Below, one piece after another: positions 5,730 through 28,552 of a stretch of DNA of 64,000 bases (position 1 is the first letter of the stretch; every line of letters begins with the position of its first letter). Both the position numbers and the translations under genes were made by a program. Below the pieces are notes generated by a model that was not told where the DNA came from, did not search any database, and saw only the letters and a list, made by a program, of their open reading frames with translations. The DNA is from Sulfuritalea sp. (GTDB taxonomy: Bacteria; Pseudomonadota; Gammaproteobacteria; Burkholderiales; Rhodocyclaceae). The stretch lies in NCBI RefSeq assembly GCF_017302275.1, contig NZ_JAFLDR010000004.1, positions 1-64,000 on the forward strand, given 5' to 3'.

Positions 5730-8700
5730 TCATGCAGCCAACTTCGCCGGCCGCGCCGCCAGATCGAAGGCCGCCCGCAACTCCTCCTGCCTGGCCCTTG
5801 CCTGAACCACCGATCTTTCCTTGACCGGCCCATAGCCGCGTATGCCGTCGGGTACGCTGGCCAGGGCGACGGCGGCCGCAAGATTGTCGGCGTCGAGGCG
5901 GTCGAGGATGTGGGCCACAGTGCGCTCGTAGTCGGCGATCAGTTCGCGTTCCTGCACGCGCTCGGGGATGCGGCCGAAGGGATTGAAGGCGGTGCCGCGC
6001 AGGAATTTGAGGCGGGCCATGAACTTCATCGCGGACAGCAGCCAGGGGCCGAAGCGGATTTTCTTCGGCTCGGCGCCGGGCTTCTCTGCGCGGCTCCAGG
6101 GCAGGGTGATGTGGAAGTCGAGCCGGTAGTCGCCTTCGAAGCGCGCCGCCAGTTCCTTCTCGAACTGCGGGTCGGCGAACAGGCGCGCGACTTCGTATTC
6201 GTCCTTGTAGGCGAGCAGCTTGAAGTAGTTGCGAGCCACTGCGTCGGTGAGTGCCGTAGCGCCAGCGACCGCAGGAAGTCCCTGTGGGGCGCCGACTCTT
6301 GTTGCGCGCTCCCGGACTTGTTCCACCAGTGCCATGTAGCGCTGCGCGTAGGCCTCGTCCTGATAGCCCACGAGGAATTCGCGCCGACGTTCGATGATCT
6401 GTTCGAGGCTGGTCGAGAGCGTGTGCGTCGGGCTGCGCACCTCGCCGGCGGCGACCAGCACCTCGACGCGGGCCGGGTCGAGGGCATGGCGGCGGCCCCA
6501 GGAGAAGGCACGGCGGTTTTCTTCGGCGGCGGCGCCGTTGAGTTCGATGGCGCGCAGCAGCGCCTCGGACGAAAGCGGTACGAAGCCGCGCTGGAAGGCG
6601 TAGCCGAGCATGAAGATGTTGGTCGAAATGCTGTTGCCCATCAGGCGCGCGGCGATGCGGCTGGCGTCGAGCAGGGTGGTGGCGGCGGCGCCGACGGCAT
6701 CGACCACCGATTGCGTCATGGCATCGGCGGGAAAGGTGCGATCGGGGTTGCGCAGGAATTCGCCGGTGATCGCCTGGCTGGTGTTGATGATGGCGTGGGT
6801 CGAGCCGGCGGCGGTCTTCGACAGCGCGTCGTCGCTGACCGCGACCACCATGTCGCAGCCGAGCAGCAGCGAGGCCTCGCCGGTGGCGATGCGCGAGGCA
6901 TGGAGCTGCTGCTGGCTTTCGGCGATGCGCACGTGGGACATCACGGCGCCGCCCTTTTGCGCCAGCCCGGTCATGTCGAGCACGGTGACGCCCTTGCCTT
7001 CGAGGTGGGCGGCCATGCCGATCAGGGCGCCGATGGTGACCACGCCCGTGCCGCCGACGCCGGTGACGAGGATGCCGTAGGGTTCGCCCAGGCCGCCGTG
7101 GCGGGGCTCCGGCAGGTCGGTGAATTCCTCGGGCGCGGCGGCCATGGCGCGCCCGCGGCGCAGGCTGCCGCCGTGCACCGTGACGATGCTGGGGCAGAAG
7201 CCGCCGACACAGGAGTAGTCCTTGTTGCAGGAGTGCTGGTCGACGGCGCGCTTGCGGCCGAACTCGGTGTCGACCGGCAGCACGGCGAGGCAGTTGGACT
7301 TGACGCTGCAATCGCCGCAGCCTTCGCACACCGCCTCGTTGATGAAGACGCGCACGGCGGGGTCGGGGAAGCGGCCGCGCTTGCGGCGGCGGCGCTTTTC
7401 GGCGGCGCAGGTCTGATCATAGATCAGCACGGTGACGCCGGGAGTGTCGCGCAGTTCGACCTGCGTCGCATCGAGTTCGTCGCGGTGGCGGATCTCGACG
7501 CCGGGCGCGAAATCGGCGACGCCCTTGTACTTCTCCGGTTCGTCCGACATCACGATGATGCGCTTGACATCCTCGGCGGCGAGCTGGCGCGTCAGTTGCG
7601 GCACGGTCAGCGTGCCGTCCACCGGCTGGCCGCCGGTCATGGCGACGGCGTCGTTGAACAGCAGCTTGTAGGTGATGTTGATCTTGCCTGCCACTGCCGC
7701 GCGTATGGCGAGTATTCCGGAATGGAAGTAGGTTCCGTCGCCCATGTTGGCGAAGATGTGCGTGGTTCCGCTGTGGCCGGAGACGCCCAGCCAGGCGGCG
7801 CCTTCGCCGCCCATGTGGGAAATGGTGACGGTGTTGCGGCCCATCATCACCGCCATCAGGTGGCAGCCGACGCCGCCCAGCGCGCAGCTGCCGGCGGGCA
7901 CCTTGGTGGACTGGTTGTGCGGGCAGCCGGGGCAGAAGTAGGGCGTGCGCAGCAGCGTGGTGCGCGGCCGCGACAGGGCGCTGGCCTTGGCGTCGAGGAA
8001 GGCGATGTAGGCCTCGATGCGCTCCGATTTGTGGAAGCGCCCGACGCGGGACGCGACGGCGCGCGCGACCAGCGCCGGCGTCAGCTCGGCGGTGGGCGGC
8101 AGCAGCCAGCGATGCTCGGGCTGCGGCCATTCGCCGGATTCGTCGTATTTGCCGACGATGCGCGGGCGCACTTCGCGGCCTTTGCCGTCGGTCCAGTTGT
8201 AGAGCATTTCCTTCAACTGGTATTCGATCACCTGGCGCTTTTCCTCGACCACCAGGATCTCTTCCAGGCCTTCGGCGAAGTGGCGCACCGATTCGGCTTC
8301 CAGCGGCCAGGGCATACCGACCTTGCACAGGCGCAGGCCGATCTCGGCGGCATAGTCCTCGTCGATGCCGAGGTCGTCGAGCGCCTGGCGCAGGTCGAGC
8401 CAGGCCTTGCCGCAGGCGATGATGCCCAGCCGCGGGCGCGGGCTGTCGAACACGATGCGGTTGAGCCGGTTGGCGCGGGCGTAGGCGAGTGCCGCATAGA
8501 CCTTGAATTCCTGCAGGCGGAGTTCCTGCGCCAGCGGCGAATCGGGCCAGCGCAGGTGCAGGCCGTCGGGTGGCAGGCGAAAATCGTCGGGCATGACGAT
8601 CTTCAGGCGCGCCGGGTCGACTTCGACGGTGGCCGAGCTTTCGGCCGTGTCGGAGGTCAGCTTGAGCGCCACCCAGCAGCCGGAATAGCGCGACATGGCC

Positions 8701-9266
8701 CAGCCGTGCAGGCCGAAGTCGAGGTATTCCTGCAAGTCGGCGGGCGCCAGCACCGGGATGCCGCAGGCCGCGAAAATGTGCTCGCTCTGGTGCGCCACCG
8801 CGGATGAGCGCGCTCCCGGATCGTCGCCGGCGACCAGCAGCACGCCGCCGTGCTTCGCGGTGCCGGCGTGGTTGGCGTGCTTGAACACATCGCCGCTGCG
8901 GTCGACGCCGGGGCCCTTGCCATACCACATCGAGAATATGCCGTCGAACCTGGGCTCGGGGAACAGGTGCAGCTGCTGGGTGCCCCAGATCGCGGTTGCG
9001 GCGATGTCCTCGTTGACGCCCGGCTGGAAGGTGATGTCGTGCTGCTTGAGGAAGGGGCGCGCGGCGTGCAACGCCGTGTCCAGCCCGCCCAGCGGCGAGC
9101 CGCGATAGCCGGACACATAGCCGGCGGTATGCAGGCCGGCGGCGCGGTCCATGGCATGCTGCAGCATCGGCAGGCGGGCCAGCGCCTGCATCCCGGTGAG
9201 GAAGACGCGGCCGTGTTCGAGCCGGTATTTGTCGTCGAGCGATACATTGGCAAGCGTCATCTGCAT
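5730..9266 (-). CDS. iorAB: Indolepyruvate (arylpyruvate) ferredoxin oxidoreductase, fused single chain
   Basis: This 1178-aa protein is of the single-polypeptide IOR type found in proteobacteria. It oxidatively decarboxylates aryl-pyruvates to aryl-acetyl-CoA with ferredoxin as acceptor. The first half holds the TPP-dependent alpha-type domains (GYRGSPLGGLD near residue 53; GDGTYFHSG for TPP/Mg). Around residues 640-690 is a ferredoxin-like region with CEGCGDCSVKSNC and CVGGFCPS. The last third is the gamma/beta domain with GVGGTGVVTIGALIG. It ends the indoleacetate-type train, which suggests a link from tryptophan-derived indolepyruvate to indoleacetate. The linker near residues 990-1005 is encoded by a dispersed repeat (6252-6300) read in frame. 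Confidence 0.9.
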   Translation of the reverse strand: MQMTLANVSLDDKYRLEHGRVFLTGMQALARLPMLQHAMDRAAGLHTAGYVSGYRGSPLGGLDTALHAARPFLKQHDITFQPGVNEDIAATAIWGTQQLHLFPEPRFDGIFSMWYGKGPGVDRSGDVFKHANHAGTAKHGGVLLVAGDDPGARSSAVAHQSEHIFAACGIPVLAPADLQEYLDFGLHGWAMSRYSGCWVALKLTSDTAESSATVEVDPARLKIVMPDDFRLPPDGLHLRWPDSPLAQELRLQEFKVYAALAYARANRLNRIVFDSPRPRLGIIACGKAWLDLRQALDDLGIDEDYAAEIGLRLCKVGMPWPLEAESVRHFAEGLEEILVVEEKRQVIEYQLKEMLYNWTDGKGREVRPRIVGKYDESGEWPQPEHRWLLPPTAELTPALVARAVASRVGRFHKSERIEAYIAFLDAKASALSRPRTTLLRTPYFCPGCPHNQSTKVPAGSCALGGVGCHLMAVMMGRNTVTISHMGGEGAAWLGVSGHSGTTHIFANMGDGTYFHSGILAIRAAVAGKINITYKLLFNDAVAMTGGQPVDGTLTVPQLTRQLAAEDVKRIIVMSDEPEKYKGVADFAPGVEIRHRDELDATQVELRDTPGVTVLIYDQTCAAEKRRRRKRGRFPDPAVRVFINEAVCEGCGDCSVKSNCLAVLPVDTEFGRKRAVDQHSCNKDYSCVGGFCPSIVTVHGGSLRRGRAMAAAPEEFTDLPEPRHGGLGEPYGILVTGVGGTGVVTIGALIGMAAHLEGKGVTVLDMTGLAQKGGAVMSHVRIAESQQQLHASRIATGEASLLLGCDMVVAVSDDALSKTAAGSTHAIINTSQAITGEFLRNPDRTFPADAMTQSVVDAVGAAATTLLDASRIAARLMGNSISTNIFMLGYAFQRGFVPLSSEALLRAIELNGAAAEENRRAFSWGRRHALDPARVEVLVAAGEVRSPTHTLSTSLEQIIERRREFLVGYQDEAYAQRYMALVEQVRERATRVGAPQGLPAVAGATALTDAVARNYFKLLAYKDEYEVARLFADPQFEKELAARFEGDYRLDFHITLPWSRAEKPGAEPKKIRFGPWLLSAMKFMARLKFLRGTAFNPFGRIPERVQERELIADYERTVAHILDRLDADNLAAAVALASVPDGIRGYGPVKERSVVQARARQEELRAAFDLAARPAKLAA
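6252..6300 (-). repeat. Dispersed repeat, long form, inside the ior coding frame
   Basis: This is a near-exact copy of the 5646-5693 element lying 600 bp away in the same orientation. It is translated as RVGAPQGLPAVAGATA in the ior protein without breaking the frame. It falls in a linker just before the conserved VARNYFKLLAYKDEYE segment, a place where an insertion would be tolerated. Confidence 0.8.
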
Positions 9267-9277
9267 TCCCTTTCCTG

Positions 9278-9436: not shown

Positions 9437-10486
9437 TCATGCGGCAACCTCACTGCGCGTGGCGTCGCGCTCGGCGGCGCGGCGGCTGAAGCGCTGGGCC
9501 AGCTTCGGCGCACGGCCCGGCGTGCTCCACGGGCAAACGGCGATGCAGATGCCGCAGCCGTAGGTCTCGTTGAAGTAAGGGATGCAGCGGTCGAAATCCA
9601 CGGCCCATTTCACCGTGCCGCGCACCAGGCGCTTTTCGCGGCTGATGGCATCGGGCGGGCATTCGTTGGCGCAAACCTGGCAGCCGGCGCAGAAGTCGTC
9701 GGCGCCGAAGGCATCGGGTGCATCGGGCAGCAGCGGCAGGTCGGTTTCGACCGCGGCGAGGCGGAAGCTGGAGCCGAACTCGCGGTTGATCAGCGAGCCG
9801 TGCTTGCCCAGTTCGCCGAAGCCGCAGGCGATGGCGGCCGGCAGAAGGTTGAGCGAGCCGACCCAGGGGCCGGCGTGGGGCACGGCCTGGTAGCCCTGGC
9901 CTCGAATCCAGTGTGCCAGCCAGTTCACCACGCGCGCGCCGCGGTTGTACTGGTCGCAGACTTCGAGCTGCCCTTCAGGGTCCTCGGCGCTCGACGGCAC
10001 CCTGGACAGGCGCGCGTGATCCATCGCGTTGCCGACAATGACCAGATTGGGCAGCGTGCTTTCGAAGCCCTCGTACACCCATTCCGGGCGAATCGCGGCG
10101 ATGCCTACCAGTTCCGCTTCGCTGCCGGCACCGGGGTAGCCGGCCGGACGCGCGCCGGGGCGGTCGAGGACGAAGTCCTTGACCTGCGCGGTCCAGGAGT
10201 CGGCGCTGGCGCCACGGCGTTCGGGTGCCGGATCGGGCAGTTTGTGCGGGCCGCGATCGGCCTTTGCATAGACGTCGTTGTAGGCCTGGACCTGGGTGAA
10301 GCGCTGCTTGACGGCATCGAGCAGGCGTGCGAAGGGGTGGTTGCCGGGCTTGCGCAACCAGAAAATCTGGCGTGGGCGGCGGGCTTCGGTTTCGCCCCAG
10401 CCGTTGAAGTCGCAGCCGGATATTTCAGGCAAGAGCGCCGCATGCTCCGGCGACGGAGTCCACGGTGGCTGGTTTTTCTTGCTCAT
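9437..10486 (-). CDS. Reductive dehalogenase-like 4Fe-4S / corrinoid-type protein
   Basis: This 349-aa protein has the RdhA/QueG architecture. A corrinoid-domain-like region ends with WLAHWIRGQGYQAV, GFGELGKHGSLI and ETDLPLLPDAP, all close to reductive dehalogenase signatures. Two ferredoxin motifs follow: CAGCQVCANECP, and a second cluster ending CGICIAVCPW preceded by a distant Cys. Unlike respiratory RdhA it has no Tat signal or membrane anchor, so it should be cytosolic. It is shorter than most dehalogenases and lacks the RNR-like tail of QueG. It sits inside a train that also encodes a B12-dependent mutase. Activity is unknown; it could be a dehalogenase, an epoxyqueuosine-reductase relative or an electron-transfer protein. 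Confidence 0.75.
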   Translation of the reverse strand: MSKKNQPPWTPSPEHAALLPEISGCDFNGWGETEARRPRQIFWLRKPGNHPFARLLDAVKQRFTQVQAYNDVYAKADRGPHKLPDPAPERRGASADSWTAQVKDFVLDRPGARPAGYPGAGSEAELVGIAAIRPEWVYEGFESTLPNLVIVGNAMDHARLSRVPSSAEDPEGQLEVCDQYNRGARVVNWLAHWIRGQGYQAVPHAGPWVGSLNLLPAAIACGFGELGKHGSLINREFGSSFRLAAVETDLPLLPDAPDAFGADDFCAGCQVCANECPPDAISREKRLVRGTVKWAVDFDRCIPYFNETYGCGICIAVCPWSTPGRAPKLAQRFSRRAAERDATRSEVAA

Positions 10487-10537
10487 GCTTCAGTTGGCGG
10501 TTGTCGGGGCGGCGGCAGGTGCGCCGCCCCGCACGGC

Positions 10538-11689
10538 TCAGTCCTTGACCCGCGCGAACTTGCCATCCTTCACGGTGATCAGGACCTGGCCGCGAAGGTC
10601 GTAGCCCGAGTGGTTGGCGGCCGACATGTTGATCGGACCCTGCGAGGCCTTCAGCTCCTTGGTGCCCTCCAGCGCATCGCGCAATGCGGTACGGAACTCC
10701 TGCGTGCCGGGCTTGCCTTTCTTGATGGCGATGGGAATGGCATTGGACAGCAGCAGGCCAGCGTCATAGGTGCCGGCGGCGAACACCGGCGGCTTGGCGC
10801 CGAAGGCCTTTTCGTAGCCATTGATCAGATCGAGGGTCACGGCTTTCGTCGGAGCACTGTCCGGGATCTCGTCGGGCACCACCACCATCGGACCCAGGAT
10901 CAGCGCACCTTCGACTTTCTTGCCGCCGATCTGCAGGAAGGCTCCGGACGCGGCGCCGTGGGTCTGGAAGATCGGACCCTTGAAGCCGGAGTCGACCAGC
11001 TGCGAGTGCGGCATCGCGGCATCGGCGCCGACGCCGGCGACCATCATCGCGTCGGGCTTGGCGGCGACCATCTTCAGCGCCTGCGCCAGTGCGGTGGTGT
11101 CCTTGGCGCCGTAGCGTTCGTTGGCGACGACCTTGATGCCCGCCTTTTCGGCCATCGGTGAGAAGGTCTTGTACCAGTTTTCGCCGTAAGGATCGTTGCG
11201 GCCGATGAAGGCGACGGTCTTCACGCCGCGCTTGGTCATGGCGGCGACCAGGCCCTCGCTGATCACATCGTCATTGGGATGGGTCTTGAACACCCAGCGC
11301 TTCTTGTCATCCATCGGCAGCACCACGGCGGAGGTGCCGACCGGCGCCAGCATCGGCGTCTGCGCCTCGGCCATGAACTGCAGCACGCCCATGGCGTTGC
11401 CCGAGCCTGAGGGGCCGATCAGCGCGTCGATCTTGCTCTCGCCGAGCAGCTTCTTGGTCAGCGTCACGCTTTGCGTCGGATCGCTGGCATCGTCGAATAC
11501 CAGGTACTCGACGTCGAGGCCGTCGATCTTCTTCGGCAGCAGGGCTACGGCGTTCTTCTGCGGGATGCCGACGAAGGGAATCGCGCCGGTCGACGAGGCG
11601 ATGACGCCGATCTTGACCTGTGCGTGAACGGGCAGGCTCATCGCCATCGCGATGCCGGCGGCGGCGAGCAGGGCGTGCATTTTTTTCAT
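10538..11689 (-). CDS. ABC-type substrate-binding protein (LivK-like)
   Basis: This 383-aa protein carries a Sec signal peptide (MKKMHALLAAAGIAMAMSLP, cleavage expected after PVHA) and then a type I periplasmic-binding fold typical of the branched-chain amino acid/aromatic-acid binding family: KIGVIASSTGAIPFVG, ALIGPSGSGNAMGVLQ, VAFIGRNDPYGENWYKTF. GGAGGAG lies just upstream of the chosen ATG at 11689; a longer upstream frame is spurious. It probably captures the pathway substrate in the periplasm. No permease or ATPase genes accompany it here, so it must share a transporter encoded elsewhere. Confidence 0.88.
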   Translation of the reverse strand: MKKMHALLAAAGIAMAMSLPVHAQVKIGVIASSTGAIPFVGIPQKNAVALLPKKIDGLDVEYLVFDDASDPTQSVTLTKKLLGESKIDALIGPSGSGNAMGVLQFMAEAQTPMLAPVGTSAVVLPMDDKKRWVFKTHPNDDVISEGLVAAMTKRGVKTVAFIGRNDPYGENWYKTFSPMAEKAGIKVVANERYGAKDTTALAQALKMVAAKPDAMMVAGVGADAAMPHSQLVDSGFKGPIFQTHGAASGAFLQIGGKKVEGALILGPMVVVPDEIPDSAPTKAVTLDLINGYEKAFGAKPPVFAAGTYDAGLLLSNAIPIAIKKGKPGTQEFRTALRDALEGTKELKASQGPINMSAANHSGYDLRGQVLITVKDGKFARVKD

Positions 11690-11733: not shown

Positions 11734-12927
11734 TCATCCGGCAATGATGCCCTGTTCCCGGAGGCTTGAGCATTCCGCCGCCGAAAATCCGGCTTCGGCG
11801 AGGACTGCGACCGTGTGTTCGCCGTACTTCGGCGGGAAGCGCAGTTCGCACTTTGCGCCGGGCCTGTCGACCGCCAGCGGCTGCATGCGCAGGGCGCGGC
11901 CGTCGGGCGCCTGCGTGCGGGTCAGCGCGCGGGCGATGGCTTCCATCTCGCGCACGGCGGGAATGTCGTTGATGGCGGCATGCGGGATGGTCGCCTGGCG
12001 GAAGGCGGCGGCAATGTCGGCGGTGGCCACGCGGCGGGTCACGGCGGCCATGTCGCGGTGGATGGCTTCGCGTTCCTTGACCCGGCCCTCGTTGGTGGCG
12101 CGCACGGCATTGGCCACCGGCGCGAACCAGGGAATCTCGGTCAGGCGCCGCCATTGCACGTCGCTGCCGATGGCCATGTAGATGAAGCCGTCGGCGGTGG
12201 GATAGACGTTGGTCGGGATGAACTTGCGATGCTCGTTGCCGCAGCGCGTTATTTCGGACGGGTCGCAGTCGAAGTCGAGCAGGGGCAGGGTGGTGATCAG
12301 CCAGGAGGCCGCCGCCTGCAGCATCGAGACGTCGATGCGGCTGCCACGGCCGGATTCAGCGCGCTCCAGCAGCGCCATCATCACGCCGGCATAGACCTCG
12401 TCGCCGGCCTTGAGGTCGATCAGCGGCACCCCGGACAGCGTCGGCGGGCCGTCGGCCGGGCCGGTGAGCTCCATGTAGCCGGCCATGGCCTGGATCACCG
12501 GGTCATAGCCGGGCGCCTCGGGATAGTCCGGGCCCATGGCCGAGATGCCGGCCCAGATCAGGTCCGCCTTTACCGCCGCGAGGCTCTCGTAGTCTATGCC
12601 GAGCTGCTTGTAGCGCTTGGGCACGGTGTTGCAGCAGAAGACGTCGGCGTCGAGTTCCTTGATCAGCCGGCGCAGTACCTCCTGGCCCTGCGGGTCCTTG
12701 AGGTTGAGCGCGATGGCTTCCTTGCCGACATTGGGCGCGATGAAATAGCTGCGCCGGTCGTCGTCGGCGACGCGACCGCCGATGTAGCGGTTGGGGTCGC
12801 CGGGCAGGCCTTCGCCGTTGGGCGTGGATTCGATGCGGATCACGCGCCAGCCTAGCTGGGCAAATCGCAGCGTCGCATAGGGCAGGCTCAATGCCTGCTC
12901 CATCGAGAGGATGGTTCTGCGCCTCAC
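11734..12927 (-). CDS. Class III (CaiB/BaiF) CoA-transferase, candidate aminophenylsuccinyl-CoA transferase
   Basis: This 397-aa family III CoA-transferase has the catalytic aspartate at about residue 171 in [16 protein letters not shown], at the family's usual position. The GTG start at 12927 gives the expected N-terminus ([20 protein letters not shown]); an upstream ATG adds unrelated residues, and the internal ATG at 12903 would trim the first strand. In the anaerobic indoleacetate pathway such an enzyme moves CoA from succinyl-CoA onto aryl-succinates. Its place between the molybdenum hydroxylase and the transport gene supports that role here, but the substrate is inferred. Confidence 0.82.
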
Positions 12928-18422: not shown

Positions 18423-18814
18423 TTCACTTCACTCCGGATGTAGTCAGTGATGGCATCGAGCTTGGAGCCGGAGGGGAAGATGCCCTTGAAGCCGAGTTCG
18501 CGCAGGGCGTCGTGGTCCTGCGCAGGCAGGTTGCCGCCGATCACCCAGAGCTTGTCGGTCAGCCCGGCTTCTTCGAGCAGCGGCTTCAGTTTGCGGCAGA
18601 AGGGAATGTGTGAGCCGGCCATGCTGGAAAGGGAAATCACGTCGACGTCCTCTTCGAGGGCGATGCGCGCGATTTGTTCCGGCGTCTGGCGCAGTCCGGT
18701 GTAGATGACCTCGAAGCCGGCGTCCATCATGGCGCGGGCGACGACCTTGGCGCCCTGGTCGTGGCCATCGAGGCCCGGTTTGCCCAGCAAAACCTTGATG
18801 GGTCTGTTGCTCAT
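18419..18814 (-). CDS. B12-binding small subunit of acyl-CoA mutase
   Basis: This 131-aa cobalamin-binding domain carries the lower-ligand motif DGHDQGAKVVARAMMDAG (DxHxxG; His lies near residue 18) and later SSMAGSHIPF and VIGGNLPAQD, which line the nucleotide-loop pocket. It pairs with the barrel subunit encoded immediately downstream (4-base overlap) and overlaps the acyl-CoA dehydrogenase stop by 4 bases, so the three genes are coupled. Confidence 0.92.
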   Translation of the reverse strand: MSNRPIKVLLGKPGLDGHDQGAKVVARAMMDAGFEVIYTGLRQTPEQIARIALEEDVDVISLSSMAGSHIPFCRKLKPLLEEAGLTDKLWVIGGNLPAQDHDALRELGFKGIFPSGSKLDAITDYIRSEVK

Positions 18815-19944: not shown

Positions 19945-19948
19945 TGGT

Positions 19949-21631
19949 CTAGGCGGCCTCGTAGCCGTAATCGCGCTTCGCCGCCTCGGGCGTGACCACG
20001 CCGTTCCTGATTTCCTCGGCCAGCAGTTTGCGGTCGCGCTTCTTCGGGTCGCCGTAGCCGCCGCCGCCGCTGGCGACCTGGTGGTATCGGGTGCCCTTGG
20101 GCACGCCGGTGATCAGGTCCTTGTTCTTCGGCACCACGGTCTGGCCGTCGGGGTAGTACAGGCGGATGAAGTTGAGGCCGCCTTCGCCGCCGCCGAAGAG
20201 GCCGAAGGCCGGTTCGAAGTCACCGTCGCCGAAAGTCACCAGTTGCGTGTCGTCGGAGCCGATGGTGAAGATGGTTTCGACGCCGAGGCCGCCGCGCCAT
20301 TCGCCGGCGCCGGCCGAGTCGGTCAGCAGTTCGTGGCGGATCAGGGTGTGCGGCGTTTGCTGCTCGAACATCTCGTAGTCCTGGTCGAGCACGCCGCCGG
20401 AGGCGTCGATCATGCCGATGTGGTCGTAGCCGTCGGTGCCCTGCATCGCGCCGGAGCCACCCTTCAAGCCCATGAAGCCGATGTCCACGTACTTCTCGTT
20501 GTTCTTCGGATCGAGGCCGGTGGTCAGCGATGCCAGCAGGTTGTTCCAGCCGGCGGTAACGCGGTCGGGCATCACCGGGGCCAGCGCGCGCTGGATGGCG
20601 TCGGCATTGGGCGGGCAGAGGTGGTTGCCGAAGGTGGTGGCCTTCGGGTAGGCCGCATTCAGTATCGTGCCGCTCGGGATCACGATCTCGATCGGTTGCA
20701 CCATGCCTTCGTTGTGCGGGATGTCCGGGTTCACCATCTGCAGCAGGGTGAGGATGGTGGCGGAGGCGCTGGAAGTGAAGGTGCCGTTCACGAAGCCGTT
20801 GGTCTGCGGGTCGGTCTTCGAGTAGTCGAACTTGATGTGCTTGTCCTTGACTTCGATATCGACGCGGATGGTGTACTTCGAGCCGACGAAGCGGCCATCG
20901 AAGTACACGTAGCCTTCGCCCGAGTACTTGCCGTTGGGGATCTTGGCGATCTCGGCTTCCATCATCTTGCGCGTGGCCTCGAACAGGGCCTGCTTGTGGC
21001 TTTCGTAGCTTTCGATGCCGTACTTCTTCAGCAACTCCAGCAGGCGGCGCTCACCGACGGTGCAGGCGCCCATCTCCGCCTTCATGTCGTGCTGCACGAT
21101 GTCGAGGCGCACGTTGGCGAAGATCAGGTTCCACACGTCCTTGCGCAGCTTGCCGCGCTCGACCACCTTGACCGGCGGGATGCGCAGGGCTTCCTGCCAG
21201 ACTTCGACCGCGTTCGGGTTGTAGCCGCCGGCGACGTTGCCGCCGATGTCGGCCTGATGGCCCTTGACCGCCGTCCAGGCCACCAGCTTGTCCTCGAAGA
21301 ACACCGGTTTGAAGGCGGCGACGTCGTTGTTCTGGTTGCCCAGGCTGAAGACGTCGTTGTGGAAGATCACGTCGCCCGGATAGATCTCGTCGCCGAAGTA
21401 TTCCTTGATGTACTTGCACACCGGCGCCAGCGAGAAGGCCAGGATGGGCAGGTTCTCGGTCTGCTCCAGCATGTTGCCATCGGCATCGTAGAGTCCGGTG
21501 ACGTAGTCCTTGGCCTCGCACAGGATGGGCGAGCGCGTGGTCTGCTCCATTGAAATACTCATCTCGTCGGTGATCGACTTGAAGGTCCGCGCATAGACGG
21601 AAAGCAGGATGGGATCGATCTTGGTGCTCAT
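19949..21631 (-). CDS. Hydantoinase B / oxoprolinase-type subunit
   Basis: This 560-aa protein of the HyuB family has the family landmarks SPILCEAKDYVTGLYDADG, HNDVFSLGNQNNDVAAFKPV, GHQADIGG and, near the C-terminus, ASGGGGYGDPKKRD. With HyuA it forms ATP-dependent cyclic-amide hydrolases or carboxylases (hydantoinase, 5-oxoprolinase, acetone and acetophenone carboxylases). In the indoleacetate pathway a HyuAB-like enzyme opens the lactam ring of 2-oxoindole-3-acetate. The ATG at 21631 overlaps the HyuA stop by 4 bases; the much longer upstream frame is a shadow of hyuA. Confidence 0.88.
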   Translation of the reverse strand: MSTKIDPILLSVYARTFKSITDEMSISMEQTTRSPILCEAKDYVTGLYDADGNMLEQTENLPILAFSLAPVCKYIKEYFGDEIYPGDVIFHNDVFSLGNQNNDVAAFKPVFFEDKLVAWTAVKGHQADIGGNVAGGYNPNAVEVWQEALRIPPVKVVERGKLRKDVWNLIFANVRLDIVQHDMKAEMGACTVGERRLLELLKKYGIESYESHKQALFEATRKMMEAEIAKIPNGKYSGEGYVYFDGRFVGSKYTIRVDIEVKDKHIKFDYSKTDPQTNGFVNGTFTSSASATILTLLQMVNPDIPHNEGMVQPIEIVIPSGTILNAAYPKATTFGNHLCPPNADAIQRALAPVMPDRVTAGWNNLLASLTTGLDPKNNEKYVDIGFMGLKGGSGAMQGTDGYDHIGMIDASGGVLDQDYEMFEQQTPHTLIRHELLTDSAGAGEWRGGLGVETIFTIGSDDTQLVTFGDGDFEPAFGLFGGGEGGLNFIRLYYPDGQTVVPKNKDLITGVPKGTRYHQVASGGGGYGDPKKRDRKLLAEEIRNGVVTPEAAKRDYGYEAA

Positions 21632-23754
21632 GCTGTTACCTCCTGTTTGTCCTTGAAGCAGGCCGTGGCGAGATCCTCGCGGCCCTTCTGCCAGATGACG
21701 AAGGAACCCAGGGCATCCACCGCGCAGTCGTAGGCGTCGCTGACGAAGATGGCCGTGGTGACCTGCTCGATCATCGCCGGGCCGGTGATGCGGTTGCCGA
21801 AATGCATCTTGTGCCCGTCGTAGACCGGGGTGTCGCGGAAGGTCTTGGTTTCCGGGATGTACATGCTGCGCTTGCCCTTCAGTGCCTTTGAGGCATCGGC
21901 GCCGTCCCAGGCCTCCCGGCGATAGGTCGGCTTGTCGGTGATGCCGATCGCCTGGACGCGGACATTGATGATTTCCATCGGCGTCTTCTCGGCTTCCAGC
22001 GAATAGCCGTACAAGCGGTTGTGCTCGGCGTTGAAGGCGGCGGCGATGGCGACGGTATCGCGGGCGTCGATCAGTTCGCGCGGCACCTTGAAGGACACCT
22101 CGTGGTACTGCTTGATGTAGCGGCAGTCGAACTTGACTTCGTAGCGGCGGCGTTCTTCGGCGATGCGCTCCTCGACCAGTTGCCGTGTGCCCTCGGCCGA
22201 CATCTCGTCGATCATCGAGGTCAGTTTCGCCCAGTCGATGGCTTCGAGGCGGGCGACGAAGGTGCGCACGAAGTCGTGCTTGAGTTCGCTCATCAGCATG
22301 CCGAAGGCGCACAGCACCGAGGATTCGCGCGGCACGATCTGCAGCGGGATTTCGAGCTCGCTGCAGATCAGGCAGGAATGGATCGGGCCGGCGCCGCCGG
22401 CGGGAATGAAGGGGAATTCGCGCGGATCGAAGCCGCGCTTGATGGTCACCTCGCGCACGCCCTGGGCCATGTTGTTGCAGGCGACGCGGTACATTCCGGC
22501 CGCGGCTTCCTCGATCGACAGGCCCATGGGTTTGGCGATGTGCTCCTCGATCGCGGCGCGTGCGGCGGCGGCGTCGAGCTTCATCCGGCCGCCGGCGAAG
22601 AAGCCAGGGTCGAGGTAGCCGAGCACCACGTTGGCGTCGGTGGTGGCCGGCAGCCGGCCGCCCTTGCTGTAGCAGGCCGGGCCGGGGTCGGCGCCGGCGC
22701 TTTGCGGGCCCATGCGCAGCATGCCGCCTTCGTCGAGCCAGCCGATCGAGCCGCCGCCGGCGCCGATGGTGTGGATGTCGAGCATGGGCAGGGCGATCTT
22801 GTGGCGGGCGATTTCGCCGTCGTTCTTGATCATCGGCGCATCGACCGCGACTGATGCCTCGAAGCTGGTGCCGCCCATGTCGGTGGTGATGCACTTGTTC
22901 TGGCCGTGCAGGCGCACGTAGAACAGCCCGGCGCCGGGGCCGCCGGCGGGACCGGAGAGCAGCGTAAGCGCAGCCTTCTCGCGCGCCAGCTGCGGCGAGA
23001 TGACGCCGCCATTGGACTGCATGATCAGCAGCAGATTCTTGAAGCCGATACCCTTGAGGCGGCCGACCAGTTGGTCGAGGTAATGGTTCAGCTTGGGGCC
23101 GACGTAGGAATTCAGCGCCGTGGTGCTGACGCGCTCGTAGAAGCGGATCGAGGGCAGAAGGTCGGTCGACACCGATAGATAGGCGCCGGGCATTTCCTTG
23201 CGCACGAGTTCCGCCGCCGCCTGCTCGTGGGCAGGATTGGCGAAAGAGTTCATGAAGCAGATCGACACCGCCTGCACGCCTTCCTGCTTGTACAGGGCAA
23301 TCGCCTGCTTGATCTGCGCCAGGTCGAGCGCGGTCGTCTCCTTGCCATCACGGTCGAGGCGGCCCGTGATACCGGCACGCAGATAGCGCGGCACCAGCGG
23401 CTTGACGTTGGTGTAGCGGTTGTTGTACTGCTCCTCGCGGATGCCGCGGCGCATTTCCAGCGCGTCGCGCACCCCTTCGGTGGTCAGCAGGCCGCATTTC
23501 GCGCCGGTGCCGGTCAGGGTCGCGTTGGTCGTTACCGTGGTGCCATGCACGATGGTGTCGATGGTCGGCGCGAAGGCTTCCAGCGACAGCGGCGGAATCA
23601 TGCTGGCGGCAATGTCGGTGAGGCCGTTGACCACCGCGATCGAAGGATCGGATGGCGTGGACAAGGTCTTGAAAATCGCCGGCTCGGCGTCGTCGCGGGT
23701 GACGACGAAGTCCGTGAAAGTGCCGCCGACGTCGATTCCGATCTTAAGCGCCAT
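21628..23754 (-). CDS. Hydantoinase A / oxoprolinase-type ATPase subunit
   Basis: This 708-aa HyuA-family protein belongs to the actin-like ATPase fold. Phosphate-binding motifs are visible at the N-terminus (KIGIDVGGTFTDFVVT) and near residue 295 (TDMGGTSFEASVA), with GAGGGSIGWLDEGG between them and the C-terminal domain. It would supply the ATP-driven activation for ring opening by the partner encoded immediately downstream. The related acetophenone carboxylase uses similar subunits, so a carboxylase reaction is the main alternative; the neighbouring Mo-hydroxylase, CoA-transferase and mutase favour lactam hydrolysis. Confidence 0.88.
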   Translation of the reverse strand: MALKIGIDVGGTFTDFVVTRDDAEPAIFKTLSTPSDPSIAVVNGLTDIAASMIPPLSLEAFAPTIDTIVHGTTVTTNATLTGTGAKCGLLTTEGVRDALEMRRGIREEQYNNRYTNVKPLVPRYLRAGITGRLDRDGKETTALDLAQIKQAIALYKQEGVQAVSICFMNSFANPAHEQAAAELVRKEMPGAYLSVSTDLLPSIRFYERVSTTALNSYVGPKLNHYLDQLVGRLKGIGFKNLLLIMQSNGGVISPQLAREKAALTLLSGPAGGPGAGLFYVRLHGQNKCITTDMGGTSFEASVAVDAPMIKNDGEIARHKIALPMLDIHTIGAGGGSIGWLDEGGMLRMGPQSAGADPGPACYSKGGRLPATTDANVVLGYLDPGFFAGGRMKLDAAAARAAIEEHIAKPMGLSIEEAAAGMYRVACNNMAQGVREVTIKRGFDPREFPFIPAGGAGPIHSCLICSELEIPLQIVPRESSVLCAFGMLMSELKHDFVRTFVARLEAIDWAKLTSMIDEMSAEGTRQLVEERIAEERRRYEVKFDCRYIKQYHEVSFKVPRELIDARDTVAIAAAFNAEHNRLYGYSLEAEKTPMEIINVRVQAIGITDKPTYRREAWDGADASKALKGKRSMYIPETKTFRDTPVYDGHKMHFGNRITGPAMIEQVTTAIFVSDAYDCAVDALGSFVIWQKGREDLATACFKDKQEVTA

Positions 23755-23791: not shown

Positions 23792-25309
23792 TCAGGCGGT
23801 TTGCGCGACCATCTGCCGCACGTCTTCCTTGCGTATCTTGCCCAGCGCGGTCTTGGGCAAGGCCTTGACCAGCACCACTTCCTTGGGATGTTTGAATCTT
23901 GCGATGCGGCCTTCCAGAAGCTTCATTACCTGCTCGCTGCTGAGCGTGCTGTTTTCCCTGGGTACCACCACGGCGACCACGATCTCGCCCCAGCGTACGT
24001 CGGGCTTGCCGATCACCGTGGCTTCGGCGATGTCCGGCGACTCGATCAGCAGGTTTTCGATCTCCGCCGGGTAAATGTTCTCGCCGCCCGAGATGATCAT
24101 TTCCTTGCTGCGGCCATCGACATAGAGGAATCCGTCCTCGTCGAGGTGGCCCATGTCGCCGCTGCGGAACCAGCCATTCTCGAGCACGGCGGTGGTGGCT
24201 TGTGGCGCCTGCCAGTAGCCGCTCATGACGTTGTCGCCCTTGATCAGTATCTCGCCGGTTTCGCCGGGCTTGACGTCGAGGCCGTTACTGTCCACCAGGC
24301 GCAACTGGCAATGCAGGCCAACCCGGCCGGTGGAGCCGACCTTGCGCATCGCGTCGTCGGCCTTGAGGTAGACAGCGATCGGGCAGGTCTCGGTCGAGCC
24401 ATAGACCTGTACCAGCGGCACGCCCTTGGCATGGACGGCGAGGATCACGTGACGCGGTACGATGCTCGAGCCGGTGGTGATCATGCGCAGGTGTGAAAAG
24501 TCGGCGCTGGCCCAACGGCGATGCGCCATCATCATGTCGAGTTGCGCCGGGACCAGCACGGTCAGCGTGATGTTTTCGCGTTCGAGGGCATCGAAGGTCA
24601 GGTCGGGATCGAACTTCGCATGCAGCACCACCGTGCAGCCGGCTTGCAGGGCCGGCGTGGTGAGGTTGTTGAGGCCGCCGACATGGAATAGCGGGAGGGT
24701 GTTGAGGATCACGTCGCCGGCCGTCAAACCGTGCATGTCCACGCTGTTGGCGGCATTGCAGGCGATCGCGCGCTGCGCCAGCAAAACGCCTTTGGGTTTG
24801 CCGGTCGAGCCCGACGTATAGCAGATCAAGAGCGGCGTTTCTTCGTCGATGGCGGGATCGCGTGGTGCCGGCAGCGTGCCTTGCGCGCAGAAGTCGTCCC
24901 AGTTCGTCCAGCCAGCGGACGGCGCGCCGATGGCGACCAGGACCATGCCGGCCAGCGCCTCGCCGATGCCTTGGGTCTGGGCGAGGAATTCCGCTTCGAC
25001 GATCAGCACCCTGGGCGGGCAGTCCTGCAACATCTGCCTGTGCTCGGGCGCCGCCAGCCGCCAGTTGAGCGGCATGAAGAGGGCGCCCAGCCGGGCGCAG
25101 GAAAACAACAATGCCAGCATTTCCGGGCGGTTGAAGCCGAGGAAGGATACGCAGTCGCCGCGCTTCACGCCGGAAGCCGCCAGAGCCGCGGCAATGCGCT
25201 CGACCATGGCCGAAAACCCGGCATAGGAAATATGCCGGCCGGAAAAGCGGATGGCGGTCTTGTCCGGGATGCGCCCGGCGTTGTCCGAAATCCAGTTCGC
25301 CACACTCAT
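23792..25309 (-). CDS. AMP-forming acyl-CoA ligase (fatty-acyl/aryl type)
   Basis: This 505-aa adenylate-forming enzyme has the P-loop YTSGSTGKPKGV near residue 170, the A5 motif QVYGSTETCP, the A7 motif FRSGDMGHLDEDGFLYVDGR and the A10 lysine in PKTALGKIRK near the C-terminus. All catalytic motifs are intact. In characterised auxin degraders an indoleacetate-CoA ligase is co-encoded, and this gene occupies that place, but whether it activates indoleacetate, indole derivatives or aminobenzoate cannot be told. The start at 25309 gives the family N-terminus; the longer frame adds 19 unrelated residues. A short-form dispersed repeat lies within the coding region (24496-24520). Confidence 0.88.
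   Translation of the reverse strand: MSVANWISDNAGRIPDKTAIRFSGRHISYAGFSAMVERIAAALAASGVKRGDCVSFLGFNRPEMLALLFSCARLGALFMPLNWRLAAPEHRQMLQDCPPRVLIVEAEFLAQTQGIGEALAGMVLVAIGAPSAGWTNWDDFCAQGTLPAPRDPAIDEETPLLICYTSGSTGKPKGVLLAQRAIACNAANSVDMHGLTAGDVILNTLPLFHVGGLNNLTTPALQAGCTVVLHAKFDPDLTFDALERENITLTVLVPAQLDMMMAHRRWASADFSHLRMITTGSSIVPRHVILAVHAKGVPLVQVYGSTETCPIAVYLKADDAMRKVGSTGRVGLHCQLRLVDSNGLDVKPGETGEILIKGDNVMSGYWQAPQATTAVLENGWFRSGDMGHLDEDGFLYVDGRSKEMIISGGENIYPAEIENLLIESPDIAEATVIGKPDVRWGEIVVAVVVPRENSTLSSEQVMKLLEGRIARFKHPKEVVLVKALPKTALGKIRKEDVRQMVAQTA
24496..24520 (+). repeat. Dispersed repeat, short form, within ligase coding sequence
   Basis: AAAAGTCGGCGCTGGCCCAA followed by CGGCG matches the short-form consensus at all but one defined position. 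It codes on the minus strand for RRWASADFS, a segment that is also recognisable in related ligases, so either the repeat inserted there and was kept, or the match is convergent. Confidence 0.55.
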
Positions 25310-25421
25310 TGGACCATCCCCCCGGCCCCCTTCGCAGTGAAGGAGATGCCCCCGGTTCGCGGGCAAAGCCCGCTCAAGGTCGCTGGCTGTGCCACCTTTG
25401 GGACGGTCCGGCGGGTGGCGC

Positions 25422-26627
25422 TCACGCGTCGCCGACTTCCAGGACGACGGACATGGCGGTATCGCCCGCCGCGCAGCCGGTGAACAGGCCGAAGCCGCCG
25501 CCCTTCATGGCCAGTTCCTCGATCAGTTCGATGATGGCGCGGGTGCCCATGGGTGCCTGCGGATGGCCCCAGACCAGCGAACAGCCGTAGTTGTTCATGG
25601 TGTTGAGGTCGCAGCCGGTCTGTTTGGCGAAGTAGAGGTCGTTGACCGCAAACGGGTTGTGCGTCTTGATCACCTTCATGTCGGCGATCGTCTTGCCGGC
25701 CTGCTCCAGGGCGCGTTTGGCCGCCGGCACCGTGGCTTCCGGCATGAAGGCCACCGGCACGCGGGCGAGGCCGAAGCCGTGCAGGCGCACCGCGATGTTC
25801 TTGTCGGTGGCAAGCTCGCGCGCCATTTCGCCGCTGGTGACGATGATCGCCGCATTGCCGTCGGCCGGGTGGGTCTGGCCGCCGAAGGTGACGCAGCCGC
25901 CGGCCATCACCGGCTTCAGCTTGGCGAGGCCTTCGGGCGTGGAATGCGAAATGCCTTCGTCGCCGGCCATGCTGCCCGCCGACTTCTTGAAGTTGGGCGC
26001 CGGCACGTCGAACGGCAGGGTCATGAAACGCCTGAGGAAGGCCGAGTCGTTCTCGAGCGACATGCGGTACTGTTCCTCGCGGCGCAGCACCAGCGCGTGC
26101 TGCTCGGCCGTGCCGATGCCGTGTTTGGTGGCGACGTTCTCCGCCGTTTGCAGCATGGCATGCGGCCCCAGCGGGTCGCAGTTGAAGTTATCCATCACCC
26201 AGTCTTCGGCGGCACCGGTGCCGCCCGGGCCTTTCGGGTTCGGGTAGTAGAGGTGAGGGCCGTTGGAGGTGCGGTCGCAATTGATGGCTAGCGCCACCGA
26301 GGACATGCCGACTTCGATTTCCTGGGCGGCAGCAAGCAGGCTGCGCACGCCGGTGGCGCAGGCTTGCATCAGCGTCGGGCCGCCGGCCTGGCCGGCGCCG
26401 ATCAGGCCGGTGAGCCAGGGCAGGCCGTAGAAGGAATGCTTCTGCGGCACCGAGAATCCCAGTACGCCATAGTCGAAGACCTTGGGGTCGAGCTTGCGCT
26501 TCGCCAGTTCGGCTTTGGCGACATGGGCGGCGAATTCCACGCTGTGCAGGTTGGCGAAGCTGCCCTGCCAGCGGGCGAAGGGAGTGCTCCAATAAGCGCC
26601 GTAGGGGATTTCTGCTTTGTAGGTCAT
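25422..26627 (-). CDS. Thiolase-family protein
   Basis: This 401-aa thiolase has the nucleophile cysteine at about residue 90 (TLMQACATGVRS), the conserved histidine region KTHNPFAVND and, near the C-terminus, GCSLVWGHPQAPMGTR followed by FTGCAAGDTA with the second active-site Cys. It resembles thiolases of anaerobic aromatic pathways rather than acetyl-CoA acetyltransferases. The expected role is cleavage of a 3-oxo-3-(2-aminophenyl)propionyl-CoA into 2-aminobenzoyl-CoA and acetyl-CoA. It is the first enzyme gene after the regulator; no hydratase or hydroxyacyl-CoA dehydrogenase accompanies it. Confidence 0.85.
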   Translation of the reverse strand: MTYKAEIPYGAYWSTPFARWQGSFANLHSVEFAAHVAKAELAKRKLDPKVFDYGVLGFSVPQKHSFYGLPWLTGLIGAGQAGGPTLMQACATGVRSLLAAAQEIEVGMSSVALAINCDRTSNGPHLYYPNPKGPGGTGAAEDWVMDNFNCDPLGPHAMLQTAENVATKHGIGTAEQHALVLRREEQYRMSLENDSAFLRRFMTLPFDVPAPNFKKSAGSMAGDEGISHSTPEGLAKLKPVMAGGCVTFGGQTHPADGNAAIIVTSGEMARELATDKNIAVRLHGFGLARVPVAFMPEATVPAAKRALEQAGKTIADMKVIKTHNPFAVNDLYFAKQTGCDLNTMNNYGCSLVWGHPQAPMGTRAIIELIEELAMKGGGFGLFTGCAAGDTAMSVVLEVGDA

Positions 26628-26697
26628 GGCTCGGTTCGGGATGGGTGGCAGTTCTGAAATGTCGCGGGTTGCGCCGCGGCTCGTGTCGACATTCGTT

Positions 26698-27405
26698 TTA
26701 TGGCCCTGAGGCGTGTTGTTCCGCGGCCTTTTCCTTGTCGATCTGTTCGATCGCCTTGACCAGAAAGAGCCTGGCCGCCTCCAGGTGCTTGTGCATCGCC
26801 GTCGCAGCGGCGTCGGCGTCGCGTTTCTTGAACGCGGCGTGGATGTATTTCATGCCGGTCAGGGCGGCCTTGCGGGCGGCCGGGTCGCCCAGGGTCAGTA
26901 CGCGCAGGAAACGCACATGGCCGACATACTGGTCGAGCAGCTTGGACATGCGCCGGTTGGGCACCAGCGCCCGCCAGGCATAGTGGAAGCGGCTGTTGGC
27001 CTCGAGGAAGGCACGAAAGTCGCCGCTTTTTTCGGCGGCGACCGCATCGTCTATTGCCGAGGACATGCTGGCCAGGTCGCTGGTTCCGGTCACTTCGGCG
27101 ACGGCGCTGCGGGCAGCCGCCGGTTCCAGCAGGAAGCGCAGTTCGTAGATTTCAGCGATGTCGGCATCGGTCAGTTCGGGAACCACGAAGCCGCGCCCTT
27201 CGACCACGATCATGCCTTCGCTTTCGAGCCGGGCGAGGGCTTCGCGCACCGGGGTTCGCGATACGCCTAGCTGCGCCGCGAGGCTGACTTCCTGAAGGCG
27301 CTCACCGGGGCGGATATGATGGCTGCCGATGTTGTCGCGCAACTGGTTGTAGACCCGGTCGGCCAGGCCTGCCGGTCGTTCCAGGGGCTTGATTGACGTG
27401 TTCAT
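26698..27405 (-). CDS. GntR-family (FCD domain) transcriptional regulator
   Basis: This 235-aa regulator has an N-terminal winged helix-turn-helix (residues about 17-80; LAAQLGVSRTPVREALARLE is the recognition region) and a C-terminal FCD ligand domain with helical ELRFLLEPAAARSAV and a metal-binding-type His pattern (FRAFLEANSRFHYA, MHKHLEA). FCD regulators usually repress by binding short palindromes and release them on binding an organic acid. It heads the leftward train and is divergent from the MeaB gene; the 94-bp gap holds a TACTG-N6-CAGTA palindrome overlapping its own predicted -10 box. Confidence 0.9.
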   Translation of the reverse strand: MNTSIKPLERPAGLADRVYNQLRDNIGSHHIRPGERLQEVSLAAQLGVSRTPVREALARLESEGMIVVEGRGFVVPELTDADIAEIYELRFLLEPAAARSAVAEVTGTSDLASMSSAIDDAVAAEKSGDFRAFLEANSRFHYAWRALVPNRRMSKLLDQYVGHVRFLRVLTLGDPAARKAALTGMKYIHAAFKKRDADAAATAMHKHLEAARLFLVKAIEQIDKEKAAEQHASGP

Positions 27406-27442
27406 GGCAGAATCGATCGCACTGTTGCGCTCGCGTCATGGA

Positions 27443-27481
27443 ATACTGGATACTGTATACGCAGTACACAGAGGGTGTCAA
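27443..27481. promoter_or_regulatory. Divergent promoters with GntR-type operator
   Basis: On the minus strand TTGACA (27481-27476) is followed after 16 bases by TATACA (27459-27454), a good sigma-70 promoter for the regulator and catabolic train. A plus-strand candidate is TTGCGC (27425-27430), 18 bases, GATACT (27449-27454). The palindrome TACTGTATACGCAGTA (27451-27466) overlaps both, and an extra ATACTG half site occurs at 27443. This fits repression of both directions by the adjacent FCD-GntR protein. Confidence 0.7.
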
Positions 27482-27499
27482 TAGCAACGGGTGCAACGC

Positions 27500-28552
27500 A
27501 TGGATTTTTCCCTGGAACAACTGGCATGCAACATCGCGGCCGGACAACGTCCCGCCCTGGCGCGCGCGCTGTCGCTGGCGGAGCGCGATCCGGCGTCCGC
27601 CGCCGCGCTGCTTGCCGCGCTCGCGGACCGGCTCGGGCGCGCCCATGTGATCGGCATTACCGGCCCGCCGGGCGCCGGCAAGTCCACCCTGGTCGGCGTC
27701 CTGGCGCGGCAGTTGCTGGCGGCCGGGCATCGCGTCGCAGTGCTGGCGGTCGATCCGTCGAGCCCGGTCACTGGCGGTGCGCTGCTCGGCGACCGCTTCC
27801 GCATCGGCGAAACCGCCGGTGACGACCGATGCTTCGTGCGCTCCACCGCCACGCGCGGCAGCCTCGGCGGCCTCACCGGCGCCGCAGGGCAGATGGTGCG
27901 CCTGATGGATGCGGCCGGTTTCGACCTGGTGCTGGTGGAAACCGTCGGCACTGGACAGTCCGAAATCGATGTCGCGCAACTCGCCGATTCCCTGCTGGTG
28001 GTTTTTCCGCCCGGGCTGGGCGACGAGCTGCAGGCGATCAAGGCCGGCATCCTCGAACTGGCGGACCTGCTGGTGGTGAGCAAGAGCGATGCACCCGGGG
28101 CAAAGCAGGCCTGCCAGGCTTTGCAGGGCGTCGCGCCGCTGTGGCGCAAGGCGCCGACCATCCATCCGGTCAGCGCGTTGTCGGGGGAGGGCATCGCCGA
28201 ACTTGTCGCGGCGGTGCTCGACCGCGCACGCGACGGGCGCTCCTCTGCGCGGCCGCCTGCAGCGGCGCCTGCCCTGCGCGAGGCGTTGGCAATAATGCGC
28301 TGCGAAATGGATCGCCACCTGCCATTTCTCCCCGCAGCAGGATTGACCATCCGACTGCCGGATATGGAGCCCAACGGCGGATCCTTGACGCTCGAGGTCG
28401 AACTTGACGCCGCGGCCGCCGGCGACCGATACGCGCTTGGCACGGCCGTCGGTGCGCTGGTGGTCCTGGCCGCGGACGCCGGATTGGACTGTGGCGTCGT
28501 ACCGGCAACTGCGGCCAATGGCACGGTCCGCATGGTCCTGACGCGCCGCTAG
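27500..28552 (+). CDS. meaB: MeaB/ArgK-type GTPase, mutase chaperone
   Basis: This P-loop GTPase of about 350 aa has the Walker A motif GITGPPGAGKSTLVGVL, Walker B-type VETVGTGQSEIDVAQLAD and the guanine-specificity motif SKSDAPGAK (NKxD variant). MeaB proteins guard cobalamin loading of B12-dependent acyl-CoA mutases. Its divergent position from the operon containing the two-subunit mutase indicates that mutase is its client. I place the start at ATG 27500, 8 bases after a GGG; a GTG at 27491 would add three residues. Confidence 0.9.
   Translation: MDFSLEQLACNIAAGQRPALARALSLAERDPASAAALLAALADRLGRAHVIGITGPPGAGKSTLVGVLARQLLAAGHRVAVLAVDPSSPVTGGALLGDRFRIGETAGDDRCFVRSTATRGSLGGLTGAAGQMVRLMDAAGFDLVLVETVGTGQSEIDVAQLADSLLVVFPPGLGDELQAIKAGILELADLLVVSKSDAPGAKQACQALQGVAPLWRKAPTIHPVSALSGEGIAELVAAVLDRARDGRSSARPPAAAPALREALAIMRCEMDRHLPFLPAAGLTIRLPDMEPNGGSLTLEVELDAAAAGDRYALGTAVGALVVLAADAGLDCGVVPATAANGTVRMVLTRR

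Follow-up and report, generated by a model that had tools for sequence, protein, structure and literature searches.

The anaerobic indoleacetate (auxin) pathway was set out by Ebenau-Jehle et al. in 2012, a study we follow through PMC8360864, PMC8453981 and PMC9613470, and strains KB740 and EbN1 are those of the anaerobic route to 2-aminobenzoyl-CoA (PMC9613470). The gene cluster bearing iaaCE is upregulated during anaerobic growth on indoleacetate, and the two IaaCE subunits have 707 and 564 aa (PMC8453981). IaaF oxidises and decarboxylates benzylmalonyl-CoA, accepts one enantiomer only, and represents a subclass with GGG where most acyl-CoA dehydrogenases have YEG or a near variant; the substitute for electron-transferring flavoprotein (ETF) that serves it in denitrifiers is reported as unknown (PMC8360864). 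Here we compare with these systems a 64-kb stretch of DNA from Sulfuritalea sp. (the window), positions 1 to 64,000 of contig C34 (156,544 bases) in a genome of 4.4 Mb and 88 contigs with completeness given as 100% and contamination as 1.4%. Because its gene order is that of Aromatoleum evansii and its IaaF carries the GGG motif, the leftward gene train in the window is a real iaa operon of the known kind. The core pathway and operon being known already, its presence is a correct annotation and not a discovery; the added point is a clade of fused indolepyruvate ferredoxin oxidoreductases (IORs) linked to iaa clusters.

Open reading frames of the window were listed, translated and matched to Pfam, ten of them also to NCBIfam. 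Using the dehydrogenase pair of the window and locus L005 as query, we searched a collection of one genome per species (84,980 species) and retained the best 80 of 283 candidate stretches encoding a relative. These loci come mostly from Rhodocyclales and Burkholderiales, and the nearest, at 90-96%, are from Rhodocyclales and Sulfuritalea metagenome-assembled genomes (MAGs). A. evansii KB740 carries two copies of the cluster, and in the second (L053) all 13 of 13 genes from the GntR regulator to the binding protein match the window in order and strand, an agreement far beyond chance. Identity to L053 is 50% for GntR, 77% for the thiolase, 65% for the ligase, 86% for HyuA (85-86% to the A. evansii copies), 91% for HyuB, 84% for the dehydrogenase, 82 and 84% for the mutase, 67, 80 and 82% for the hydroxylase, 80% for the CoA-transferase and 58% for the binding protein. 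The IaaF counterpart (18811..19944, minus strand; Pfam) has GGG at residues 360-362. Of the 82 sequences compared (those of the window, of L006 and of the 80 loci), 81 carry this motif and the remaining one is cut short; the unrelated dehydrogenase of L007 has YEG instead. The first-pass annotation had read the train as anaerobic indoleacetate degradation and proposed comparing gene order with Azoarcus and Aromatoleum strains, and that comparison upholds the reading.

At the 3' end of the train lies a fused IOR (5730..9266, minus strand; NF009588, 1717 bits), on the same strand as the CoA-transferase gene and 3' of it. An IOR in this arrangement is linked in 33 of the 80 loci, not linked in 16 and undecided in 31. 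In 12 loci the two genes share a strand and the IOR starts no more than 2.5 kb 3' of the CoA-transferase. For 44 further loci we searched whole genomes, leaving 23 loci outside the search behind the linkage count (counted as undecided). A strong IOR match was present somewhere in 43 of these 44 genomes, the L080 genome having no such IOR anywhere. It sits on the iaa contig, on the same strand and 3.2-17.5 kb 3', in 21 of the 44 (overlaps at the joins identical, 21/21), and is preceded by a fused hydratase/dehydrogenase gene in 18 of those 21; six of the 21 (L035, L045, L055, L073, L085, L087) have it 9-18 kb from the CoA-transferase with other genes between. One locus with a linked IOR, L075, belongs to a cultured strain, Ramlibacter lithotrophicus RBP-1. 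Fifteen of the 44, L080 among them, are unlinked by coordinates, a call that depends only partly on contig extent, and eight are undecided since little contig remains 3' of the cluster (L041, L043, L048, L052, L056, L058, L059, L062). L053, outside these 44, counts as the sixteenth unlinked locus, by contig extent. In genomes drawn from the order, all three that carry iaaF have a linked IOR (the G449 locus is L159). Strong IOR matches occur in 48 of 120 order genomes regardless of iaa, so it is linkage, not presence, that constitutes the evidence.

A tree of 86 IORs places 32 linked sequences (30 of the 33, the window and L159) in one clade with SH-aLRT support 99.6, against 54 unlinked sequences. 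The unlinked rows include the second copy from the window's own genome (C56) and second copies from 14 genomes that also have a linked IOR (G667, G668, G669, G672, G704, G684, G666, G697, G707, G705, G698, G682, G691, G378). This tree, which followed an earlier version of 67 rows, is a quick search with no bootstrap; nine linked rows are less than half filled, the root is not known and the unlinked rows are a sample. L010, L014 and L034 were left out of the IOR trees as too short, and L182 was left out of the 86-row version as a long branch. All trees reported here are quick searches with SH-aLRT support only. The plain reading of the topology is that the IOR would have been recruited once, long ago, into an iaa cluster and co-inherited from then on. 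The first-pass annotation had placed an IOR at the end of the train, correctly, but had treated it as a flanking extra; with 33 of 80 loci linked and the window IOR inside the one clade, it belongs recurrently to the wider iaa cluster and is not a stray neighbour. Among the papers listed by searches of an open-access library, and in a word search of PMC8360864, we found no report linking a fused IOR with iaa, although the founding papers of 2012 and 2016 may contain one. We infer that this enzyme turns indolepyruvate derived from tryptophan into indoleacetyl-CoA, feeding the pathway.

The train genes are all on the minus strand, in one direction as first annotated, with a MeaB gene on the plus strand divergent from GntR. 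Every enzyme family named in the first-pass annotation was recovered by Pfam at its coordinates; four starts in its list of reading frames (HyuB, ligase, CoA-transferase and binding protein) were moved inward, by our own choice of start, and the gene at 9437-10486 had been absent from that list. The GntR/FCD regulator (26698..27405; PF00392, PF07729), in the same place as in L053, is followed by a thiolase (25422..26627; PF00108/PF02803), putatively acting on 2-aminobenzoylacetyl-CoA, and an AMP-forming acyl-CoA ligase that is the IaaB counterpart (23792..25309; PF00501). The ATP-dependent lactam hydrolase IaaCE corresponds to a HyuA-type subunit (21628..23754; Pfam) and a HyuB-type subunit (19949..21631; PF02538, 471 bits), whose 708 and 560 aa compare with the published 707 and 564 aa (PMC8453981). 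After the dehydrogenase come the B12-binding small subunit (18419..18814; PF02310) and the large subunit (16809..18422; PF01642, 632 bits) of the IaaGH mutase. The FAD (15935..16798; PF00941, PF03450), 2Fe-2S (15475..15948; PF01799, PF00111) and large (13049..15463; PF02738, PF20256) subunits of the molybdenum hydroxylase follow. Next are a family III CoA-transferase, the IaaL counterpart (11734..12903; PF02515, 229 bits), and a periplasmic substrate-binding protein, the IaaM counterpart (10538..11689; PF13458). Gaps along the train range from -14 to 170 bases, and from HyuA to the hydroxylase large subunit every one is an overlap or at most 11 bases, so this section is likely transcribed as one unit. 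No permease gene occurs in the train, and Pfam matches to its genes include neither ETF nor an aminotransferase.

Residues that we take to be catalytic are kept throughout the sequences compared: the cobalt-binding His of the mutase (DGHDQG) in 80 of 80, Asp163 of the CoA-transferase in 60 of 60, Cys90 of the thiolase in 64 of 64 and Glu753 of the hydroxylase in all 61 that reach the site (5 more stop short). Tyr65 and Arg183 of the mutase large subunit, at positions that presumably bind substrate, align with the Tyr and Arg of methylmalonyl-CoA mutase, whereas Ile and Gln stand there in the solved 2-hydroxyisobutyryl-CoA mutase. The pair is present in 77 of 79 sequences, the other two missing one or both positions, and since it matches methylmalonyl-CoA mutase it is consistent with a substrate bearing a second, free carboxylate. 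HyuA scores 491 and 471 bits against solved structures named 5-oxoprolinase and N-methylhydantoinase, and 325 and 249 bits against the solved ketone carboxylases for acetophenone and acetone, an identity that was rejected on these scores.

The first-pass annotation had asked whether phylogeny would place the hydroxylase, HyuAB or mutase with enzymes of another pathway, and no such placement was seen. In a tree built from 61 large subunits of the hydroxylase, that of the window falls inside a 14-row Sulfuritalea-like group (100*), which adjoins the Aromatoleum group with joint support 86 (unstarred), both within a 32-row clade (99*) that contains the Aromatoleum iaa hydroxylases. Its sole outgroup, the 4-hydroxybenzoyl-CoA reductase of the window, sits on a very long branch that drew a program warning, and poorly covered rows (for example L029 and L076) were excluded from the hydroxylase trees. 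Other mutases in the genome are at most 40% identical to that of the window, and HyuA is 85-86% identical to its A. evansii counterparts.

Among the 80 loci the operon also varies. At least 13 clusters (L027, L035, L039, L041, L055, L056, L058, L064, L066, L067, L069, L071, L075) carry a distant hydroxylase trio, with a large subunit about 53% identical to that of the window, in an otherwise ordinary operon. On a tree of dehydrogenase and mutase, made of iaa rows only with no outgroup, this trait (12 of the clusters) requires 9 changes, at least 7 of them forced by well-supported branches, which suggests repeated exchange of the trio; shuffled traits averaged 11.1 changes, with 26 of 500 as low as the observed 9. 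Five clusters lack HyuAB. In L068 (5130-5558), L070, L074 and L077 a glyoxalase-family protein, possibly a malonyl-CoA-type epimerase, takes its place, and the GGG-type dehydrogenase, the mutase and, where the contig extends that far, the CoA-transferase are kept; the substrate of these clusters may not be a lactam. A reduced cluster in L080 (2275-17661) has thiolase, dehydrogenase, mutase and CoA-transferase without ligase, hydroxylase trio or iaa HyuAB, and adjoins divergent distant HyuAB and TRAP transporter genes; that it starts from arylsuccinate is a guess. Genomes bearing iaaF are scattered (2 of 369 in a draw from the class, 3 of 300 from the order, 0 of 8 other genomes of the window's family), a distribution that loss or horizontal movement could explain. 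The three carriers in the order draw are the window's own genome, G378 (to judge by its gene pattern, the source of L082) and G449.

Neither a hydratase nor a 3-hydroxyacyl-CoA dehydrogenase lies within the window train, as the first-pass annotation had stated, nor was one found between the corresponding genes of the A. evansii clusters. The genome nevertheless holds one full-length fused 3-hydroxyacyl-CoA dehydrogenase/enoyl-CoA hydratase (C47:18622-20613), 61-75% identical to fused proteins found near iaa in 31 of the 80 loci; the next genome match by E-value is partial, at 29%. Pfam recovers both domains on the L074 copy, and the gene lies 3' of the CoA-transferase in many loci and upstream in Aromatoleum and others. 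We therefore rejected its absence from the train as a sign of an incomplete pathway. An Azoarcus-type benzoyl-CoA reductase (BzdO) is encoded on C8 (928 bits), whereas the Thauera-type BcrB reached 55 bits, below the cut-off, and was set aside. Together, the C47 fusion, the train thiolase and BzdO would supply the remaining beta-oxidation and benzoyl-CoA reduction. By eye, BzdO stands amid genes resembling the rest of bzd in C8:1-15000 (L120), with a divergent box-type aerobic benzoyl-CoA cluster adjoining; family searches in this stretch covered BzdO and BcrB.

Further anaerobic functions are encoded nearby and elsewhere. The window holds at 37156-58211 genes for phenylphosphate carboxylase alpha and beta, 4-hydroxybenzoyl-CoA reductase alpha and beta, a 2-oxoacid:ferredoxin oxidoreductase and PEP-synthase-like proteins that may be phenylphosphate synthase, a phenol/4-hydroxybenzoate-type cluster that looks like anaerobic phenol degradation. 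Four genome matches to cytochrome cd1 exceed the cut-off, and two of these are strong, at 522 and 495 bits. Given the genes for BzdO, 4-hydroxybenzoyl-CoA reductase, phenylphosphate carboxylase and cytochrome cd1, the host is likely anaerobic and denitrifying. Between the train and the phenol-type cluster, at 33838-36895, an aldehyde ferredoxin oxidoreductase whose C terminus is fused to a ThiS domain lies beside a MarR regulator.

Several genes border the train. A MeaB-type GTPase chaperone for B12 mutase (27500..28552, plus strand; PF03308, 256 bits; TIGR00750 over cut-off) has the same divergent position next to the cluster in close relatives, among them L012, L014, L016, L017, L020-L024, L028 and L030. 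At the other end, 9437..10486 (minus strand) encodes a reductive-dehalogenase-like or QueG-like Fe-S protein (TIGR02486, 111 bits, below cut-off) whose best solved match is PceA (102 bits), with no obvious signal sequence by eye. Of the loci compared, L010, L013, L014 and the window alone have it next to iaa. Homologues occur in 5 of 300 order genomes, namely 2 of the 3 bearing iaa (one being the window's own) and 3 of the 297 others, and in the second iaa-bearing carrier, G378, the homologue is on a contig other than that of iaa. The gene is perhaps a local insertion; that it serves the pathway, for instance by reductively removing the amino group, would be a weak proposal. A PLP-dependent decarboxylase lies at 3793-5439, 290 bases past the IOR on the same strand, and a role on aromatic amino acids is a guess.

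What we observe are families, key residues, gene order, phylogeny and downstream genes; every reaction of the train and its substrate we infer, by analogy with the published pathway. Indoleacetate would be taken up with the help of the binding protein and converted by the ligase to indoleacetyl-CoA, and the molybdenum hydroxylase would introduce oxygen from water at C2 of the indole ring. HyuAB would open the resulting lactam at the expense of ATP, giving (2-aminophenyl)succinyl-CoA, whose CoA the CoA-transferase would shift to the other carboxyl. The B12 mutase, maintained by MeaB, would rearrange the product to (2-aminobenzyl)malonyl-CoA, which the GGG-type dehydrogenase would oxidise and decarboxylate to 2-aminocinnamoyl-CoA. 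The fused hydratase/dehydrogenase encoded elsewhere and the thiolase would then remove acetyl-CoA to give 2-aminobenzoyl-CoA for the benzoyl-CoA pathway. As a second entry, the IOR could convert indolepyruvate from tryptophan straight to indoleacetyl-CoA, saving the ATP of the ligase and yielding reduced ferredoxin of the kind used by benzoyl-CoA reductase.

We are thus highly confident that the train is a complete iaa operon for anaerobic indoleacetate breakdown in a probably denitrifying bacterium near Sulfuritalea, with the IOR as a presumed second entry. Several points weigh against this reading. The evidence on the host is genome sequence, and because the cluster of A. aromaticum EbN1 is not among the 80 loci, A. 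evansii KB740 served as the published strain. Published accounts differ on the substrate of the ring opener, given as the free acid in PMC8453981 and as the CoA ester in PMC5214803 and PMC8360864. Among solved structures, the mutase large subunit scores highest with 2-hydroxyisobutyryl-CoA mutase (500 bits, against 393 for methylmalonyl-CoA mutase), and nothing but its pocket residues speaks for a dicarboxylic substrate. For the IOR, a Fe-S gene and a 170-base gap separate it from the rest of the window train, and it is unlinked in six Aromatoleum clusters (five genomes: both A. evansii copies and clusters of four other Aromatoleum species) and ten further clusters, so it is not essential. The mutase score, together with enzyme families that are common to such pathways, could point to a train for nicotinate, acetophenone, acetone, hydantoin or 2-hydroxyisobutyrate. 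We regard that as very improbable, since each key enzyme matches an iaa counterpart at 65-91% and the gene order is identical, the dehydrogenase has GGG, and HyuA is closer to lactam hydrolases than to ketone carboxylases; the nicotinate, acetophenone, acetone and 2-hydroxyisobutyrate pathways were rejected on these grounds. A 2-hydroxyisobutyryl-CoA mutase identity was likewise rejected despite the top overall score, given Tyr65 and Arg183 in place of Ile and Gln.

What the IOR contributes is less settled. The physiological substrate might be tryptophan-derived indolepyruvate and not free auxin, with the IOR as main entry and the ligase merely rescuing free indoleacetate. That the IOR clade travels with iaa, and that the ligase, at 65% identity to A. 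evansii, is less conserved than HyuAB, the mutase, the dehydrogenase and the CoA-transferase, which reach 80-91%, lend this some appeal, but the operon retains both ligase and binding protein, the Aromatoleum clusters are among the 16 with no linked IOR and the train genes include no aminotransferase, so we consider it possible but doubtful. Linkage for another purpose, in which phenylpyruvate or an arylglyoxylate is converted to an arylacetyl- or aroyl-CoA within a general route for aromatic amino acids, is less probable still, and we judge it unlikely. An IOR has been proposed for phenylpyruvate in Desulfococcus (PMC5109826), which counts against our reading also, and aerobic auxin loci carry IOR-like genes (figure legend in PMC9613470); however, the linked clade accompanies iaa genes, and the second fused IOR of the genome, of the unlinked kind, could serve such a purpose instead. 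Returning to the iaa operon with an IOR entry, it is quite possible, if somewhat short of probable, that outside Aromatoleum iaa serves mainly anaerobic catabolism of tryptophan and indolepyruvate, the dedicated, co-inherited IOR bypassing ligase and free auxin and its ferredoxin aiding benzoyl-CoA reduction.

The operon marks the anaerobic auxin pathway in many Rhodocyclales and Burkholderiales MAGs, whose database records often name groundwater and lakes as the source. If our interpretation is true, the recurrent IOR would connect the anaerobic oxidation of tryptophan with auxin breakdown and could explain why bacteria away from plants keep the auxin pathway, and the role of the IOR is directly testable with one purified protein.

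The window's operon thus takes its place among known auxin loci as follows. With the aerobic iac and iad loci, compared here by description only, it has the substrate class in common and differs in that their pathways are aerobic; PMC9613470 treats iaa as too divergent to discuss alongside them. With A. evansii it shares the 13 genes and their order at 50-91% identity, the GGG motif and the lack of hydratase/dehydrogenase between the genes. It departs from Aromatoleum in its divergent MeaB beside the regulator, in the IOR and reductive-dehalogenase-like gene at its 3' end, and in its unlinked fused hydratase/dehydrogenase, which in Aromatoleum is upstream and divergent in five of six clusters (L046, L047, L049, L050, L053). 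With the Sulfuritalea-like and other Rhodocyclales and Burkholderiales clusters (L010-L089), the window shares the operon.

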